From Promethearchaeia archaeon (GTDB lineage Archaea; Asgardarchaeota; Lokiarchaeia; Sigyniarchaeales; SOKP01), in assembly GCA_029856045.1 (NCBI GenBank), contig JAHQWG010000028.1, positions 142,547 to 206,546 on the forward strand: a stretch of DNA of 64,000 bases. Direction: 5' to 3'. Below, piece after piece: positions 9,947-23,117 of this stretch; position 1 is the first letter of the stretch, and each line of letters opens with the position of its first letter. The notes under the pieces are model-generated. The model was given only the letters and a program-made list of their open reading frames with translations. It ran no database searches and was not told where the DNA came from. Both the position numbers and the translations under genes were made by a program.

Positions 9947-10567
9947 ATTCCAAGTCGTCGCGGAGATGGAACACTTGTATTCAAAGTTGTATTCTGGGGT
10001 CCCTCTTTAGGAGGGAAAACTACTGCTTTAGAATGGGTTTACAAGAAGGAGGGGCTTGCTTCAGGTGATATGCAGCAAATAGCTGACCCAACTGGAAGAA
10101 CCCTCTTTTTTGACAGAGTTGTCGCTCGAGTAAGCAATGTAGTTTTTCAAGTATATACCGTTGCTGGCCAGAGACGCCATAAGTTCCAGAGACGAACGGT
10201 CCTCAAAGGAACTGACTGCATCCTCTTCTTTTGGGACAGTTTAATCGACCAGTGGGAAGAAAATATATGGAGTTTAAAAGAATTATTACAATTTTATGGA
10301 GATAAATTAATTTCTAAAAGTTTTTCTGACCCAGCGGAAGTTCCACTCGTTGTTTGTGCAAATAAACGTGATTTAGAAGATATTGTAGAGATAAATAAGA
10401 TTCGCGAAGTTCTTGATAAAGCTAAGTTAAATCAAACGTTGGTCTATGAAACGATCGCAATTACCGGAGTTAATGTGAAGCGAGGATTTGTTTATGCTGC
10501 ACGCCAGGGGGTGCTAAATCATTATAAAAAACTTCAGGGCGAAGTGTCCGAGCAAGAGACTGCGTAA
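9947..10567 (+). CDS. MglA/Ras-like small GTPase, inferred ATT start
   Basis: A 206-residue GTPase when read from ATT at 9947. The G1 P-loop GPSLGGKTT is at 18-26, G3 is VAGQ near 72-75 (AGQ instead of DxxG, as in MglA-type GTPases) and G4 is NKRD at 139-142. The first ATG (10070, codon 42) would remove the whole P-loop, so it cannot be the functional start. In-frame codons between the upstream TAA at 9887 and that ATG include no GTG, TTG or CTG, and a strong SD sits six bases before the ATT. The gene stands alone between a divergent phosphodiesterase and a convergent methyltransferase. MglA relatives act as polarity or signalling switches; the partner is unknown. A sequencing error at the start codon is the main alternative. 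Confidence 0.88.
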   Translation: MPSRRGDGTLVFKVVFWGPSLGGKTTALEWVYKKEGLASGDMQQIADPTGRTLFFDRVVARVSNVVFQVYTVAGQRRHKFQRRTVLKGTDCILFFWDSLIDQWEENIWSLKELLQFYGDKLISKSFSDPAEVPLVVCANKRDLEDIVEINKIREVLDKAKLNQTLVYETIAITGVNVKRGFVYAARQGVLNHYKKLQGEVSEQETA

Positions 10568-13532: not shown

Positions 13533-16106
13533 TTATTCAAGCATTTTCCAGGGCTTTCCGAAAAGAAGAAATGAATTAAAAGCAATGATTGATTCTACAT
13601 TTATGTCTTGTTGTATATCTATTTCTTTTTGGTCAACATTTGACGCCACCTTATTTAGAAGAATTTTTTGTCGTGCTTTCAATACAGAAATTCCTTGACT
13701 AAACCCATCAGTTAGATTATTATATATATTTGAAATTAATTGCCTTGTATTATCGTTAAAATCGTATAAAATTCTTATAATAATTCCAGTTATCTCGTTT
13801 TGATCGAAATTTTGAATTATCTTAGAAATAACCTTTAAAATTGATGGTAATTGATCTCCCAAAAGATTGAATATACGTACATTAAAGAAAATGAATGGTT
13901 TTTTGCTAGTAGTAGTCTTTTTTATAGCATAATTAATATCTGAAATAGAAACTGTTTGATAATCATTAGTAATAAAATAACTATTTTTTGGATTCTCGGT
14001 TGAATAAAATAAATTTCCAATGATATGAATGATGTCATTAGTGCCTGAGATTATACTATTTAAAACATTTTCTCGGGTTAAATTTTCTTGTATGTAATAT
14101 TCCATATGGTCAACGAAAGAAGATTCACTGAAATATTGGATAATATGATTTAACTCATTTACACCTTCATTAAAGGGATACATTAACACATTATTTTTTG
14201 TGGCATCATCCCATTTTGATGGAAGCATTAAATTTAAACTCCCAAAAGTTAATATATTAAATTTTTGTTTCGATTGATCTAAAGGCAAAATAGGTATGTT
14301 CGAATTAATTCCTCTTAAATCAGGTTCTCCTAGAGAGTATCCAATAGGATATTTCAAAGAAAAGAATCCAGACCCATCGTGGATTAAATCAAACGGTATA
14401 TTTATTTTATCAAGTATTAAAAATATGTGAGGAATATGATCTGTACAATCTTGTTTCAATTTTAAAAATATATTTCTAAGTTTTTTTGGAAGAGATAAAT
14501 ACAGAAGTTTTCCAAAATCTACAAATGTTATATCTTTTTCAACTTCTATATTCCAAAAAAGATCATTATAAATTTTAATTAAATAAGCGTCGTTCCAATA
14601 TTCATCAACAATTATATCTTGAAATTCTTGTGAATCCTCGAATTTTCCAAAATAATTTATTTTCCCATTATCTCTAATTCTTATTGAGAGATATTCGATT
14701 TTCAGATTCTCTTTTTCGTCGAATAGATTAAATAATCCTTCATCTTGTTGATCGAAAAAAGTCATATTTTCAAGTTCCTGAGAATATTCATTTGGAAATT
14801 CTTGTAAATTTGTCAATAATGGTTGTATTTTTTTGGATAAAAATTTATTTATATTTTCGCTTAAATTTATATCCTGTTCTTCAAAAAATGCTCTATAAAA
14901 CATTGAATTCCAAAATTCAAATTTTTCAGGTGTAATAAATTTAGTTTTTAGCCTCCAAATAAAATTATAGACATAAAAGTAATGCACTATTTGTTTAGCA
15001 TTTGAAGGAGTTGAAATATTTTTTTGTAATTCTTCTAATGATCTCAAAAGATATTTTTTTTCTTTTAGATCTCTAAAATTTTTGCAAGCGTCAGCCCAAT
15101 GTTCAATTAAAAGAAAATTATATTTATTTTTATAGAATTCTTTAAAATAATTCCCTAAAAACTTATATAAATTAAATGATATCTCAAATCGATTTCTTTT
15201 TAGTAAAAAATATAAGTATTTCTTTATATAATCAACAGCATCATCTAGGGAATTGAATTGAATAATCTTAAGAAAAATATTCTCAATTAAACTCAATATC
15301 CAGCTAGATTCTCCGATATCATTCAAATACATCAATAAATTTTCTAAATCTGAGAAGATCTCATTAAAATTTGTTTCATTTATTTTTATTTTTGATAAAT
15401 GAGAGAATTCACTTTTTAATTCAGGGCGTAATTTATCTACCATAATATTATTTATCTCTTTTACAAATTCTTCAGAATTCTCCTTTAATTGAAATGAGAT
15501 TCCAATATTTTCTATAAAAACATATAGTAATAAGGTTCTTTTAGTAGGCTCAATTTTTTTTAGAAATTCCCATAAAAAATTTACAGAAAAATAATATATT
15601 GATGATGGAGAAACTGATTTATTAAGGTAAATGGATAGAATTTGGTATTTAAGTAATTCATGATAATTTCCTTCATCTTTCATAATGTTTGAAAGAGAGT
15701 TTAGTAATTTTATTAAACCATTAATTGAAACGTCTGGTTGATTAATATAAGATTTGATAAGATTTTTTCCGTGATTTAGTAATTCATAATATTTGTTTTG
15801 TTTAGCCAAAAAACCAAAATAACGATTATAAGAATCATAATATTTTATAACGTCAAAAATTGAGCCCTCGTCGGTTTGTTGAATTAGAGACTGCAAATAT
15901 TTATCCCAAGAATTATTTAAAATTTCATTTAATTGGTCTTTTTTTTGAAGGTTTATCCAATCTGCCTTTTGAATATCAAAATATAGCTTTGTGAATAACT
16001 TATCTGCCCATTTATGATTTCCTAACTTTAACAATTTTCGACCTTGGATTATTTGCTGTTCAAAATTCTTGAAAAACTCTTGGTTTTTTTCATTTTGAGA
16101 ACTCAT
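13533..16106 (-). CDS. TPR-like/helical protein with C-terminal degenerate CHAT (caspase-like) domain
   Basis: A protein of 857 residues. The first 500 or so are predicted alpha-helical, with TPR-like spacing (KLLKLGNHKWADKLFTKLYFD, then repeated helical pairs). The C-terminal part, from about 545, follows the CHAT pattern: IPFDLIHDGSGFFSLKYPIGYS near 565-585, DIIHIIGNLFYS near 690-700, FFNVRIFN near 740, then GIIIRILYDFNDNTRQL, an NLTDGFSQGISVLKARQ helix and a closing FNSFLLFGKPW. The usual catalytic His (HxxGH) is Asn here and the expected Cys region has no Cys, so it is probably a protease-dead CHAT. It lies 50 bases downstream of the actin-related gene and is likely co-transcribed. Function unknown; a scaffold or sensor role is inference. 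Confidence 0.75.
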   Translation of the reverse strand: MSSQNEKNQEFFKNFEQQIIQGRKLLKLGNHKWADKLFTKLYFDIQKADWINLQKKDQLNEILNNSWDKYLQSLIQQTDEGSIFDVIKYYDSYNRYFGFLAKQNKYYELLNHGKNLIKSYINQPDVSINGLIKLLNSLSNIMKDEGNYHELLKYQILSIYLNKSVSPSSIYYFSVNFLWEFLKKIEPTKRTLLLYVFIENIGISFQLKENSEEFVKEINNIMVDKLRPELKSEFSHLSKIKINETNFNEIFSDLENLLMYLNDIGESSWILSLIENIFLKIIQFNSLDDAVDYIKKYLYFLLKRNRFEISFNLYKFLGNYFKEFYKNKYNFLLIEHWADACKNFRDLKEKKYLLRSLEELQKNISTPSNAKQIVHYFYVYNFIWRLKTKFITPEKFEFWNSMFYRAFFEEQDINLSENINKFLSKKIQPLLTNLQEFPNEYSQELENMTFFDQQDEGLFNLFDEKENLKIEYLSIRIRDNGKINYFGKFEDSQEFQDIIVDEYWNDAYLIKIYNDLFWNIEVEKDITFVDFGKLLYLSLPKKLRNIFLKLKQDCTDHIPHIFLILDKINIPFDLIHDGSGFFSLKYPIGYSLGEPDLRGINSNIPILPLDQSKQKFNILTFGSLNLMLPSKWDDATKNNVLMYPFNEGVNELNHIIQYFSESSFVDHMEYYIQENLTRENVLNSIISGTNDIIHIIGNLFYSTENPKNSYFITNDYQTVSISDINYAIKKTTTSKKPFIFFNVRIFNLLGDQLPSILKVISKIIQNFDQNEITGIIIRILYDFNDNTRQLISNIYNNLTDGFSQGISVLKARQKILLNKVASNVDQKEIDIQQDINVESIIAFNSFLLFGKPWKMLE

Positions 16107-16156: not shown

Positions 16157-17359
16157 TCAATCTTCATCTACTTCGTTAGAAGGAGGTTGGGATATAACCT
16201 CACCATTTTGATTTTTATTTTGAAAATTTGGATTTTCAATCCATCCTTTCGTAATTAATCCACGAGAATATAAAATAGAGGCTCCAATCCAACCCATATC
16301 ATCTCTTCCTGTTGGTGTAATAACCTTAATTTCATCTCTGATTTTTTCGGAAAAAAACTTACCAACTTCCACTTTTAATCTTTTACCAAGATCTTTAATT
16401 AGGCTAGTTCCGCCACAAAGAATAATATTTTGGAGTAATTCCAACCAATCATTCCTATTCCATGTTTTAACAAGATCTGCAATCATTTTTGGTAATTCTA
16501 TAATATCCAAATGAATTCGATTTGGATTGAATAAAGGTTCGGGAATCATTATTCTTTCATAATTAATCGTAAAAATACATCCATCAGGTAGTTGAATTTC
16601 TTGGTCAAAAGAACTTAACCCTTCTTCAATTTTTTTTTTAGTTTCTTTAGGATTAAAAACACATATTGAAGATCTATCTTTTATTTCTCGTGCAATCCAT
16701 TTATCTATATAATTTATTTTGTATTTCTTATTAAATAATATTAAATCCATAAAATATTCAGTAAGATCCTTTCCTGCAATTGGAAAAAAGTCGCGAGCTG
16801 AGAAATTACTAAATCCATGTAAATATGTTGAAACAAACGAATTTTGCTCTCCTAGATTGATAACAACCCCTGTATTTTTACCTATGGCAGATAAAACACA
16901 ATCAGAAAAAGTAAGAAAATTAATTTGGGGGAAATTTAATTCATCTAAAAATATCTGTTGCATTTTTTTTTTATCATTCTCTGAACTAGTAAAAGGAAAT
17001 AAAACAATTAATGGCTGTTGGAAAAAAAAGTTCTGTTCTATTCCCAATTGATGATAATAATATAAAAAGAATTTTTTCAAGACGTTATAATTTTTTTCTA
17101 TTACAAATTGATGATTATTCAAAATATCTTTATATTTTAACGCTTCAGACCCATATAGATGTTTTTCTGTATTCTTAGAAATAACAATATCCTTTAATCC
17201 TGAAATATTATCTGATTTATATATGGGATCTGTTATATCCGTATATATACTTGGAACTATAATATCGGGAAGATCGTCTCCCGCAAAACCTAACCGAAAA
17301 TTAGCAGAACCTATATCTAAGATTAGGGGACGCAAAAACTCTTCTTTCTCATTTTCCAT
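16157..17359 (-). CDS. actin-related protein (Asgard actin family)
   Basis: A 400-residue actin-fold ATPase homologue. The phosphate-1 loop ILDIGSANFRLGFAGDD (13-29) parallels actin DNGSGMCKAGFAGDD. The phosphate-2 loop is VVINLGEQNSF (165-175), the adenosine motif IILCGGTSLIKDLGKRL, and the C-terminus DDMGWIGASILYSRG matches actin VWIGGSILAS. By eye, actin Gln137 corresponds to Asp (FSDCVLS) and Asp154 to Asn (INLGEQ), the two residues that position the hydrolytic water, so hydrolysis may be slow or absent. The tail after 380 is Asn/Gln/Pro-rich. It sits between the coiled-coil gene and the pseudo-CHAT gene on one strand, suggesting a dedicated partner set rather than the general Lokiactin. 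Confidence 0.92.
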   Translation of the reverse strand: MENEKEEFLRPLILDIGSANFRLGFAGDDLPDIIVPSIYTDITDPIYKSDNISGLKDIVISKNTEKHLYGSEALKYKDILNNHQFVIEKNYNVLKKFFLYYYHQLGIEQNFFFQQPLIVLFPFTSSENDKKKMQQIFLDELNFPQINFLTFSDCVLSAIGKNTGVVINLGEQNSFVSTYLHGFSNFSARDFFPIAGKDLTEYFMDLILFNKKYKINYIDKWIAREIKDRSSICVFNPKETKKKIEEGLSSFDQEIQLPDGCIFTINYERIMIPEPLFNPNRIHLDIIELPKMIADLVKTWNRNDWLELLQNIILCGGTSLIKDLGKRLKVEVGKFFSEKIRDEIKVITPTGRDDMGWIGASILYSRGLITKGWIENPNFQNKNQNGEVISQPPSNEVDED

Positions 17360-18686: not shown

Positions 18687-21600
18687 TCATATTTTCTCTT
18701 CTTTTTGCTTTCTTAATAAGAGATATAAAATAATAACGACTGTAATTATTAGCGGAAAAAACACTGCCAAAGGGTTTCCTCCTGTTAAATTATTGAGGGC
18801 TAAAGAAATTGTAAACAAAGCGGCAATTAAAGAGATAACTGATCCATATTGACTGGCAACGAATCTTAATCTATTAAGGATCTCATAAAATTTGAAGTTT
18901 GTGGTTTTAATAACTTTTAACTTAGCAGGATTTAAACTATCAATAATTTCAGGATTCTCATAATATAACTGAAGTTCAGGGTCATATTTTCCTGGTAAAG
19001 CATTTTCACCAATCAATGTGATAATATATGTTTGGATTTTATCTTTTTTAATTTTAAGTTCGCGCGCCAAAAAAGATATTGTTATATATTCGTCTTTAAC
19101 CGCTTTAATAACAATTTTTACATAACTTTTAAGTATTAATTGCTCTAATTTTTTAATTTTCTCATTAATTATCTCATCATACTCATGCAGAAAATGTTTA
19201 AAATCGTCAAAAAGAAATTTATTTTTTGTATTGAATGTAGGAGATGATTTTTTGAATTCTTTTTTAAGTTTAGATGTTTCGTTTTCAATATATTTTAATC
19301 TTTCACGTATTTTTTTTACCCTTCTTTGAACCATAATACTTGTAGATTTAAAATCTTTAATTTCTAATTTGTCTTCAACTTTTCGTTCTAAGGATCCAAG
19401 CATTTGATTAAGTATAACCTGGTTTCTATTTATAAAATGCATCAAATCTTCTTTTAAAGCGTCATTTTTAATCAAGTCTAATTTTTTTGATAAATTTTCC
19501 TTAAATTCTTCAAATTCTTTATTAAATTGATGCTTCTTAAAAACAAGTTCTTCTCGAATTTCAGAATTTGATATTTTTAAACTTTCATTCTCTACCATCA
19601 TGGTACTAATTTTTTGTTCAATCTCATTCAAAGAAATTTTCCTAGTTTCTGATAATTTTAAGATTTTACCGCTAAAATTATTTATAAGTTTATCATAATC
19701 GTTTATTTTTTCAGCTTCGTCTTGAAATAATTTATTTAATTCCCGTAATTGGATTCTTAAAGAGTTGAATTCTTCACCGATGAAACTTACAAGTTGATTA
19801 AAAATTATTGTATTTTTGTTAATTTCATTAATAATATTCCTATATCTATTAAGTTCAGTATTAAAAAAATTTTTATTCGCTATGAAATCATCTCTATTTG
19901 TATTTATTCCAATTTTTAAAATTTCATTTTGGTAACTTCTTTCTAAATTTAATTGCTGGTTATTAAATTCTTCTATTCTATTTTGAATTTCTAAAACATT
20001 AACTTTAAGAGATTTATTTTTTATTGCAGATTCATATAGAGATACTAATTTTCCGAAATTATTTCCTAATTTCTCTATTTGTTTTTCTATAAAATTTCTC
20101 AATTGTTTATTCTTATAATAGTTATCTGTGAATACAAGGAGTTCCTTGTTATTTTCATCCAATTCTCCATCTAATTTTGTAATTTCTATCATTTCATTGA
20201 TTCTTTCGATCAATATATTACATTTTAGATTTAATTTTTTCTTTAAATCATCCAGTTTTATGAGATTTGTATGGGATTGCGAGGTATTTGACAGAATCTC
20301 TTGTTTAATAATCTCATTTGTATATCTATTTTTTAAATCATTCAAATTATTTTTAAATAGATCTATGAATTTATTCCATGATAACATACATAACTTTGAT
20401 TTCTCTTGAAAATCTACTACAATTTTAGCAAGTTCTTTTACTTTATCTTTAACTTTTTCATTGAGATCTGAATAATTTTTAGAAAGTTCAGCAATTCGAG
20501 ATTTTAAATTGGCGATTTTAAGTTTTTGATAATTTAAATCTTTCGCACATTCATTTTCTTTCTTTCTTAATTGTTCTTCTAAAATGGAAATATTGCTTTT
20601 TATAAAATTATCAAATTCTTTTAATTTCTCAAGTTCCCGTTCTTGAATAACTTTATCTTCAATAGAATTTCGATAATTATCAAATTTCTCAATTATTTTC
20701 TGCTCTAATTTATTCCAATCCTCTTGAATTTTTTTTAGAAGTAGAAAAAGTTTTCTCTTACTCTTCAAATGTTCCTTTAATTGAGATTGGGATTTTTTAA
20801 TTAATTCTAATTTTTCATTTAAAAGCTTCTCAGTTTTTTCTTCAATAATTTCCAGTGCCAGTTGATATTTTTTTTCCTTTAAGATTAAATCAACTGTGTT
20901 TTTGAGTTCATTAATCATCATAGAAGTACTTTGTTCTATTTCCTTTATTTCATTTTTATCATTTTCATAAATCTTAAATCCTTCTAGGAAATAATCAATA
21001 AATGTATCTGCATCTTCTTTAATTGATATCCATTTTGAGATAACCTTCTTTTGCGTTTTTTGAATGGATTTTTCTTTAGAAGTAATTTTATGTGATATTT
21101 TATAGATTTGCGTATCTAATTTCGTGATTTCTGAATTAAGATGTTCGCAAACTTTTAATAATTGTTGAACAATTCCATTAGAATATGATTTCTCTAGGGA
21201 TTCTCTAAATAAATTTTTAAAGTGGTCAATTAAAGAATAAATCTTTTGTTCATTTTTATCAATTAAATCTTCTAACTTATTCAAAATTAATTTGAAATTT
21301 TTTAGATTTTCTTTTTCCTTGAAAATTTCATTAAAATAATTTTGTAAATTAAAATATTTGCCTCGAATTTCTGAATAATTCTTGTTCCATTCCACTATCT
21401 CATTGGATAACTGATAATTTGGATTTATGTATTTAAAATCTGTAGAAAAGGAATTTTCAATATTTTCATTTAAAAAATCGGCTTCCATTAAAGCATTTTT
21501 TACATTATATTTTAACCTTTCTCTTGCTAAATCGAATTCATTTACAAGTATTAAGCTTTTAATCTCTTCTTTAATCTTTTTTGGTGTATCTTTTAATTTG

Positions 21601-23117
21601 ATTATTATATTATAAATATCTGTTTTTATTTCCTCCAATTTAAATTTTTCATTAATTATTTCTTCGCTATTTATATTAGAATCAATTCTAATTACTTCAG
21701 AAATAAATTTGTCTTTATATAGATAATATTTGCTAAAAAAAATCATGTTTTTCCGAAGAATTCGACCTAGGAAAAAGTTGTGCGAAATTAAATCTTCTGT
21801 TAGAAGGATCAAATCCCTAATTTTTTTTGGCTTATTTGGGTAATTGTATTTGTAGTCATTCAGAAGTTTATTTAAATAGATAACGCTATTATTTTTTATC
21901 GATGCATATACTGATTTAGCTAAATATGCATTTTCTCGGGTTAAATTTCTTAAATAATTATTAAATTCAATTTCATTATCTAAAATCTCCAAATTAAAGT
22001 TGTATTTCTGATTAATATGTCTGAGAATTTCTGGTATTCCCTCATTTATTCCTAACTCTTTTTTTAAAATATTTAAGTCTAAAGAAGTATTTATATCAAA
22101 ATGTCTAAAAGCAGTTCTCTCAACTTCTTCAATAAATTTAGACCAAATAAATGAGCACATTAAAATAATTTTCGAAATATCCATTAATTTCAAGGTATTA
22201 AATGAACTATAATCATGATTTAAGCCTTTAATTTTCGTTGAGAGAAAAGAATAAATCTTTCCACGATTGTAATCAAAGAACCAGGAATAATTTTCCAAAA
22301 CATAAATAATCCAAAATGTTTCATTTATTTTCCCAACATTTTCCTTAAAACTAAAACCTCCATCATTTTGTTGAAATTGGTGTAAATATTTTAAGTGTTT
22401 AGTCTCAATATCAGAAATTAAATCAAAATATTTAAGACTAAGTAATTGAAATACTATGGAATATTTCTTTTTTAAATCATTAAAATATTTTAAAAACACA
22501 TTTTGTTCTAATTTGATATCAAAATCTAGAAGAATCAATGCTTCTATTACGAAAAAACTTGTTCTAATAGGCGTTGTTTTTTGGCAAATTGTACAATTTT
22601 TGTTTAAACAATGAATAAAACGCCCTTTATCTCTGGTCTTATAAATAAAATTAATAATCTTTTCTTTTATATTTTCTCTTGAATGTGTAGATAAATAGGC
22701 ATCTAATTGTCCTAATAAATTTAAACTGGCTAAAGCAAAAAAGGTTGACCAATTATCTGGTTTTCTCTGTTTAGATTCAGGGGAAAACTTAAATCCTAGG
22801 GAATTTTCTTCAAAAATTTCACATCCTGTTATGAAATTAATGATCTTTTTGAGATTTATAGATATATCTTCCCTCAAATATTTCCCCAATAAAAGAAACC
22901 AATATATATTCTCTAAATTCAGATTTCTGAAATTTAATAATTTTTTTTCAAAAAAACGATAAATTTTCACAATCTTATCATATTCAGGTATAAAAAAACT
23001 TCCTATATCGTCATCTATGGCAAAAGTAAATGATCTAAACGGCTTCTTTTTGAATACCGTTACATACGGATAGGCAGAATTATCTTTTACCTTTGCCATG
23101 TTATTGTGCTCAACCAA
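18687..23117 (-). CDS. giant coiled-coil protein: N-terminal alpha/alpha-toroid, winged helix, C-terminal membrane hairpin
   Basis: A protein of 1476 residues. Residues about 60-350 look like a terpenoid-cyclase/prenyltransferase alpha/alpha toroid, with QW-type repeats such as LHQFQQNDGGFSF and a HCLNKNCTIC cluster that could bind zinc. Residues about 400-1330 are almost continuous Lys/Glu/Asn-rich coiled coil. A winged-helix-like segment follows (about 1335-1400, ITISFLARELKIKKDKIQTYI), then two hydrophobic stretches near 1422-1438 and 1447-1468 ending in LLLRKQKEEKI. The topology predicts a cytoplasmic rod anchored at its C-terminus. It is 85 bases upstream of the AbrB-ACT gene. It resembles no characterised protein known to me; similarity to golgin-like tethers is architectural only. 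Confidence 0.85.
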   Translation of the reverse strand: MVEHNNMAKVKDNSAYPYVTVFKKKPFRSFTFAIDDDIGSFFIPEYDKIVKIYRFFEKKLLNFRNLNLENIYWFLLLGKYLREDISINLKKIINFITGCEIFEENSLGFKFSPESKQRKPDNWSTFFALASLNLLGQLDAYLSTHSRENIKEKIINFIYKTRDKGRFIHCLNKNCTICQKTTPIRTSFFVIEALILLDFDIKLEQNVFLKYFNDLKKKYSIVFQLLSLKYFDLISDIETKHLKYLHQFQQNDGGFSFKENVGKINETFWIIYVLENYSWFFDYNRGKIYSFLSTKIKGLNHDYSSFNTLKLMDISKIILMCSFIWSKFIEEVERTAFRHFDINTSLDLNILKKELGINEGIPEILRHINQKYNFNLEILDNEIEFNNYLRNLTRENAYLAKSVYASIKNNSVIYLNKLLNDYKYNYPNKPKKIRDLILLTEDLISHNFFLGRILRKNMIFFSKYYLYKDKFISEVIRIDSNINSEEIINEKFKLEEIKTDIYNIIIKLKDTPKKIKEEIKSLILVNEFDLARERLKYNVKNALMEADFLNENIENSFSTDFKYINPNYQLSNEIVEWNKNYSEIRGKYFNLQNYFNEIFKEKENLKNFKLILNKLEDLIDKNEQKIYSLIDHFKNLFRESLEKSYSNGIVQQLLKVCEHLNSEITKLDTQIYKISHKITSKEKSIQKTQKKVISKWISIKEDADTFIDYFLEGFKIYENDKNEIKEIEQSTSMMINELKNTVDLILKEKKYQLALEIIEEKTEKLLNEKLELIKKSQSQLKEHLKSKRKLFLLLKKIQEDWNKLEQKIIEKFDNYRNSIEDKVIQERELEKLKEFDNFIKSNISILEEQLRKKENECAKDLNYQKLKIANLKSRIAELSKNYSDLNEKVKDKVKELAKIVVDFQEKSKLCMLSWNKFIDLFKNNLNDLKNRYTNEIIKQEILSNTSQSHTNLIKLDDLKKKLNLKCNILIERINEMIEITKLDGELDENNKELLVFTDNYYKNKQLRNFIEKQIEKLGNNFGKLVSLYESAIKNKSLKVNVLEIQNRIEEFNNQQLNLERSYQNEILKIGINTNRDDFIANKNFFNTELNRYRNIINEINKNTIIFNQLVSFIGEEFNSLRIQLRELNKLFQDEAEKINDYDKLINNFSGKILKLSETRKISLNEIEQKISTMMVENESLKISNSEIREELVFKKHQFNKEFEEFKENLSKKLDLIKNDALKEDLMHFINRNQVILNQMLGSLERKVEDKLEIKDFKSTSIMVQRRVKKIRERLKYIENETSKLKKEFKKSSPTFNTKNKFLFDDFKHFLHEYDEIINEKIKKLEQLILKSYVKIVIKAVKDEYITISFLARELKIKKDKIQTYIITLIGENALPGKYDPELQLYYENPEIIDSLNPAKLKVIKTTNFKFYEILNRLRFVASQYGSVISLIAALFTISLALNNLTGGNPLAVFFPLIITVVIILYLLLRKQKEEKI

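Follow-up and report, generated by a model that had tools for sequence, protein, structure and literature searches.

What kind of protein joins a prenyltransferase-like head, a long helical rod and a membrane anchor in an archaeon? The question is raised by a single minus-strand gene of a Promethearchaeia archaeon (contig JAHQWG010000028.1), a member of the Lokiarchaeia, archaea close to the ancestors of eukaryotes. The gene lies at positions 18687-23117 of the 64,000-nucleotide stretch analysed here (the window). Our preferred reading, to which we assign a probability of about 0.5, is that it encodes a Lokiarchaeia-specific, cytosol-facing scaffold or linker, anchored in the membrane and carrying a non-catalytic toroid head. 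The original prediction, made from the DNA letters, had placed here a tail-anchored coiled-coil protein with an N-terminal alpha/alpha toroid, of an architecture unfamiliar from prokaryotes; on the last point our searches agree, as they returned no described prokaryotic family with such a layout, and no account of the family was met in the literature searched. The reading frame is genuine: it has exactly the predicted span, lies on the minus strand, counts 1476 codons and starts at either a TTG at 23117 or an in-frame ATG at 23099 (residue 7). A chance frame is excluded because some 39 aligned orthologues show conserved length and full-length matches. Its parts, with the evidence for each, are as follows.

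18687..23117 (-): whole open reading frame, 1476 residues; frame call and full-length orthologues
22083..23060 (-): alpha/alpha toroid (Prenyltrans, PF00432), residues 20-345; Pfam E 2.6e-6, to 1e-16 in orthologues; profile against Rab geranylgeranyltransferase (RabGGTase) beta, E 2e-14
22584..22613 (-): HC-x4-C-x2-C, probable zinc knuckle, residues 169-178; near-invariant in orthologues
21948..22145 (-): winged helix 1, residues 325-390; sequence pattern
21678..21932 (-): winged helix 2, residues 396-480; profile, best in the PDB the DDRGK1-UFL1 fusion 8b9x, E 1.8e-4
20358..21665 (-): first block of tandem three-helix repeats of about 111 residues, residues 485-920; profile-profile comparison and repeat hidden Markov model (HMM)
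21096..21401 (-): repeat unit, residues 573-674, with conserved W577; repeat HMM, domain E 5e-17
20442..20729 (-): repeat unit, residues 797-892; repeat HMM, domain E 3e-15
20103..20315 (-): mid-rod PCI/DDRGK-type winged helix, residues 935-1005; hhalign to the C-terminal winged helix, PDB and Pfam
19158..20102 (-): second block of helical repeats, residues 1006-1320; profile-profile comparison and repeat HMM
19248..19559 (-): repeat unit, residues 1187-1290; repeat HMM, domain E 4e-17
18918..19160 (-): membrane-proximal PCI-type winged helix, residues 1320-1400; PCI 18.5 bits (cut-off 22), PDB and Pfam
18783..18839 (-): transmembrane helix 1, residues 1427-1445; hydropathy 1.84, conserved
18714..18770 (-): transmembrane helix 2, residues 1450-1468, followed by RKQKEEKI; hydropathy 3.01, conserved

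The toroid-rod gene is a single-copy, vertically inherited Lokiarchaeia family. A profile search covering 228 genomes of the phylum detected it in 63 of 65 within its own family, where the two genomes that lack a match are 58% and 84% complete. In the same order, families f2 and f3 have it in 7 of their 9 genomes, and elsewhere in the class it is present in all four genomes that represent three further families; outside the class only four matches appeared, all weak and partial. Among 97 relatives searched with the protein, the gene turns up in 71 genomes. Orthologues within the family are about 38% identical over their full length and measure 1460-1504 residues, the organism's own genome holds one copy, and a tree of residues 20-480 agrees with taxonomy.

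The toroid foreseen at the N terminus stands, because PF00432 matches and because RabGGTase beta subunits head a PDB search made with a profile of 21 heads of the family, followed by the beta subunits of geranylgeranyltransferase I (E 3e-8) and farnesyltransferase (about 1e-3). In the window protein the PF00432 match covers residues 63-171 at 27.5 bits (gathering score 26.5), while relatives overall score 36.8-61.7 bits and the distant orthologues 54.6-61.7. A Cys4-type zinc site had been suggested; the motif is instead His-Cys3 (H169-C170-x4-C175-x2-C178), its four positions being conserved in 24, 23, 23 and 21 of 24 sampled sequences and the whole lost or partly lost in a few orthologues (L045, L033, L042, L056). 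When the zinc-ligand register of RabGGTase (Asp, Cys, His) is traced by hand through the family alignment and a HMMER alignment to 6o60_B, it falls on non-ligand residues. A search of the organism's genome for the alpha subunit (PPTA, PF01239) gave no match at E<=0.1, with a 32-residue model that is insensitive and brought no control genome over the cut-off. Because, by hand alignment, the zinc ligands of the enzyme are without counterpart and PPTA gave no match, we take the head to be probably one that binds and does not catalyse, in which the catalytic metal site would have been lost. Compared with RabGGTase beta (1dce, 6o60), the solved structure that the head profile matches best, the protein shares the alpha/alpha toroid, yet it apparently lacks the catalytic Asp, Cys and His, has its own His-Cys3 motif, and is fused to a rod and a membrane hairpin in a genome without an alpha-subunit family match. 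Prenyltransferase-beta-like folds have already been noted in archaea, and the prenylation of archaeal Rab-like GTPases doubted (PMC4915359), which is compatible with a non-catalytic or lipid-reading head without demonstrating one. Two other toroid proteins were noticed. A 1247-residue protein in contig C35 of the organism's own genome (L078:4667-8410, minus strand; PF00432 76 bits) has predicted surface domains and a C-terminal transmembrane segment, and was rejected as a paralogue, being a surface-type toroid protein without a rod; in genome G030, toroid repeats, transmembrane segments and an ABC-transporter ATPase occur in one polypeptide (L118:1663-4755, minus strand).

Behind the head, about 900 residues of coiled coil had been predicted. 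The helical rod is upheld, heptad-rich and poor in Pro and Gly as it is, but it is better read as two blocks of tandem, spectrin/EzrA-like three-helix repeats of about 111 residues, with the mid-rod winged helix between them. A repeat HMM, seeded with four units from two paralogues and then iterated on the family, yielded 130 units with E<1e-3, while reversed sequences gave 1; the window protein itself has only three. As training used the family itself, the E-values for its members are not independent. Among 565 open reading frames, no unit was found in any protein outside the family, although only about a dozen of those are helix-rich. The unit has a Trp in its first helix, and its heptad pattern is broken twice, at about columns 28-37 and 65-72 of the 96-column model, where Gly, Pro or insertions occur; the two breaks therefore point to three helices per unit. 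Spacings between unit starts peak at 100-120 (14), 220-240 (30) and 380-400 (28), consistent with a register of about 111 residues plus one inserted winged helix, and the rod matches itself in hhalign (residues 720-835 against 1225-1330, and 800-920 against 1200-1312, both 95%). Residues 485-560 form the rod's most conserved block within the family, and the best-resolved orthologues (L050, L054, L048) run from toroid through winged helices 1 and 2, repeats, winged helix, repeats and winged helix to the hairpin. Read in this way, the rod would be some 30-40 nm long, not >100 nm. An NCBIfam match of the window protein to SMC was dismissed as a chance coil match; nothing else was found there. EzrA of the Firmicutes and eukaryotic spectrins have the same plan of a membrane-linked rod with serial three-helix repeats of about 100-122 residues, EzrA being a prokaryotic precedent for a spectrin-like rod that links cytoskeleton and membrane (PMC4243239). 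In the Lokiarchaeal protein, however, the anchor is C-terminal, winged helices are interspersed and the head is a toroid, and as no sequence relation was found, the likeness is one of plan, not of membership.

Of the single winged-helix segment originally predicted, the C-terminal domain is conserved, but there are four such domains and not one (about residues 325-390, 396-480, 935-1005 and 1320-1400). Mid-rod and C-terminal domains align in hhalign at 96% (E 4e-9), and winged helix 2 aligns with the mid-rod domain at 67%. Combined in one profile, the mid-rod and C-terminal domains retrieve from the PDB 8b9x (E 3.5e-5) together with PCI subunits of COP9, the 26S proteasome and eIF3, the nominal top match being a 'CAP repeat' chain that covers only 18 profile positions, and an independent profile of winged helices 1 and 2 also puts 8b9x first. 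Among single winged-helix sequences, PCI is matched by 13 of 18 (best E 3.4e-7), DDRGK by three and UFL1 by two; the C-terminal domain of the window protein taken alone lies below the PCI threshold. By these matches the winged helices are of the PCI/UFL1-DDRGK type, which serves for protein docking in the complexes where it is known. The resemblance to UFL1, DDRGK1 (UFBP1) and PCI proteins is confined to this winged-helix type, the rest of the architecture being different, and an identification of the window protein as UFL1 was rejected, the PF09743 match of the genome belonging to another gene (G000:C36:78975-79628). Contig C36 of the organism's own genome encodes a UFL1-like protein of 789 residues (L155:3905-6271, minus strand), in which zinc motifs at the N terminus accompany tandem winged helices; it is found above the Pfam threshold in most of the Lokiarchaeia genomes that were searched. 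In addition, the profile of residues 325-480 matches (E 4e-15) a HEAT-repeat-like protein of another Asgard family, which has a pair of the winged helix 1-winged helix 2 kind at its end (L109:3719-5098, minus strand).

The predicted two-helix C-terminal anchor is confirmed by the orthologues: 35 of 36 hairpin-type sequences possess two hydrophobic segments 2-14 residues apart, flanked on either side by Lys/Arg, of which the loop has 0-1, and hydropathy reveals no transmembrane segment at the N terminus. Under the positive-inside rule the charged flanks would leave both protein ends, and hence the rod, in the cytosol, a topology read from hydropathy and charge only.

A related group has exchanged this anchor for another tail. 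The longin-tailed paralogues (L051, L052, L053, L114), found in families f6 and f7 and in one genus of f1, are monophyletic (support 100/99) and share with the hairpin family the toroid, winged helices 1 and 2, the repeats and the C-terminal winged helix; they differ in length (about 1240-1320 residues), in having fewer repeats, and in a longin-like domain that replaces the hairpin. The tail matches PF19036 (FUZ/MON1/HPS1 longin) at E 0.007 and 17 bits, below the cut-off, which weakly suggests a MON1/FUZ-like longin in an ancient paralogue. Any tie to trafficking of the eukaryotic kind is indirect: it consists of this longin and of RabGGTase beta as the closest solved toroid. A longin-like domain is also fused to an alpha/alpha toroid in a 428-residue protein of another Asgard family (L111:989-2272, minus strand).

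Sequence profiles give the domain order, repeat periodicity, winged-helix type, hairpin pattern and single-copy conservation, and from these we infer the repeat fold and the scaffold role. The hairpin, with both ends inside, would fix the protein in the membrane, and the two blocks of spectrin/EzrA-like three-helix repeats would form a semi-rigid rod, probably of 30-40 nm. Docking or composite-assembly sites may be provided by the PCI/UFL1-type winged helices, which sit near the membrane, in mid-rod and just behind the head. The RabGGTase-beta-like head, with its His-Cys3 knuckle and its catalytic metal site lost, would capture a ligand; the most plausible candidates are isoprenoid lipids, lipidated proteins and partners linked to small GTPases or longins. 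The protein could then join membrane to membrane, or membrane to cytoskeletal or small-GTPase machinery.

Several observations weigh against a scaffold or linker of this kind. All five f4 genomes in the profile search are without the gene, which is therefore dispensable in at least one lineage. The locus has no conserved functional neighbour: downstream in the window, on the same strand, lie an AbrB/ACT-like gene, a coiled-coil gene, an actin-family gene and a CHAT gene, but the sister genome G001 has no actin gene at the locus and other genera are without the whole downstream set. Neither spectrin nor EzrA chains are found among the PDB matches of the repeat profile, and longin-like domains are abundant in Asgard genomes, so that longin fusions hint at small-GTPase machinery without proving it. 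The toroid could also be catalytic after all, by means of a re-arranged metal site. Finally, the AlphaFold models of the N-terminal end (predicted local distance difference test, pLDDT, 35, from 4 near-identical sequences) and of a rod piece (pLDDT 50, from a 4-sequence alignment, with helices >100 residues drawn) are unusable, and the folds therefore rest on sequence profiles.

The original prediction likened the protein to eukaryotic tethering proteins, and the likeness holds insofar as golgins and other long coiled-coil tethers also possess a membrane-anchored rod and a distal head. A golgin-like vesicle or membrane tether in the full sense, with a capture head, a tail anchor and a continuous, parallel, dimeric coiled coil of >100 nm, would account for a heptad-rich, Pro/Gly-poor rod anchored at one end and for the long helices of the low-confidence rod model. 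We nevertheless think it unlikely, as the periodicity of about 111 residues, the fixed heptad breaks, the conserved Trp and the interruption of the rod by a winged helix read as three-helix repeats with PCI/UFL1-type docking domains. The protein also differs from golgins in its hairpin anchor and has no sequence relation to them. Just as improbable, in our view, is a divergent enzyme whose toroid transfers or cyclises isoprenoids while rod and anchor hold it near the membrane: archaeal membranes are isoprenoid-based, the head belongs to PF00432 with RabGGTase beta as its closest solved relative, and the His-Cys3 motif could serve as a new metal site, but that motif is lost in some orthologues, the hand alignment puts the RabGGTase zinc-ligand register on non-ligand residues, and the alpha-subunit family was not found in the genome.

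The winged helices prompt two further explanations. Their closest relatives, in DDRGK1/UFL1 and PCI proteins, and the fact that UFBP1 is membrane-anchored would suit a UFM1-ligase-type scaffold (UFL1/UFBP1-like) engaged, at the membrane, in the quality control of ribosomes or translocons; the genome, however, has a separate UFL1-like protein of about 790 residues (zinc motifs, tandem winged helices), the window protein has no other UFL1 likeness, and PCI-type winged helices serve many complexes. We rate this idea slightly below the golgin-like and enzymatic ones. Winged helices are also the commonest archaeal DNA-binding domain, and some single sequences match helix-turn-helix families, as would be expected were the protein a nucleoid-membrane anchor whose winged helices bind DNA, but the set as a whole is of the PCI/DDRGK, protein-docking type, and we consider this the least likely of the four.

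A functional link between the toroid-rod gene and the AbrB-like, coiled-coil, actin and CHAT genes was rejected, since the synteny is not conserved, and the one neighbour conserved family-wide, a convergent DEAD-box helicase gene, is taken as incidental. Among the neighbours, the actin-family protein (window 16157-17359, minus strand; PF00022, 152.8 bits) is encoded directly downstream of the 230-residue coiled-coil gene, and an 857-residue protein (13533-16106, minus strand) has a sub-threshold CHAT (caspase-like peptidase) domain, its place in G001 being taken by an open reading frame of only about 205 residues that matches it. The window also holds a small GTPase (Arf/Ras) at 10070-10567 on the plus strand; its listed ATG excludes the P-loop (GPSLGGKTT), which lies in frame upstream, and the true start is therefore further 5'. 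In genome G077 a second protein of about 1487 residues adjoins the orthologue (L049:3824-8287, minus strand), with a C-terminal winged helix-turn-helix-like match and no toroid found.

The component folds of the toroid-rod protein are known; their combination and its distribution are new. As a conserved, single-copy and directly locatable structural candidate in the Lokiarchaeia, previously undescribed in the literature searched, it bears on an open question: by what means, in the absence of known tethers, Asgard archaea order their membranes, protrusions and small GTPases. A bolder and rather doubtful possibility, to which we give more credence than to any of the four alternatives above, is that Lokiarchaeia own a spectrin-like membrane skeleton or tether, in which an anchored rod of three-helix repeats carries a RabGGTase-beta-like head that reads isoprenoid or small-GTPase cues and a longin-tailed sister links the rod to MON1-like GTPase machinery. 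If this were true, the protein would be an archaeal device uniting parts that eukaryotes use separately.

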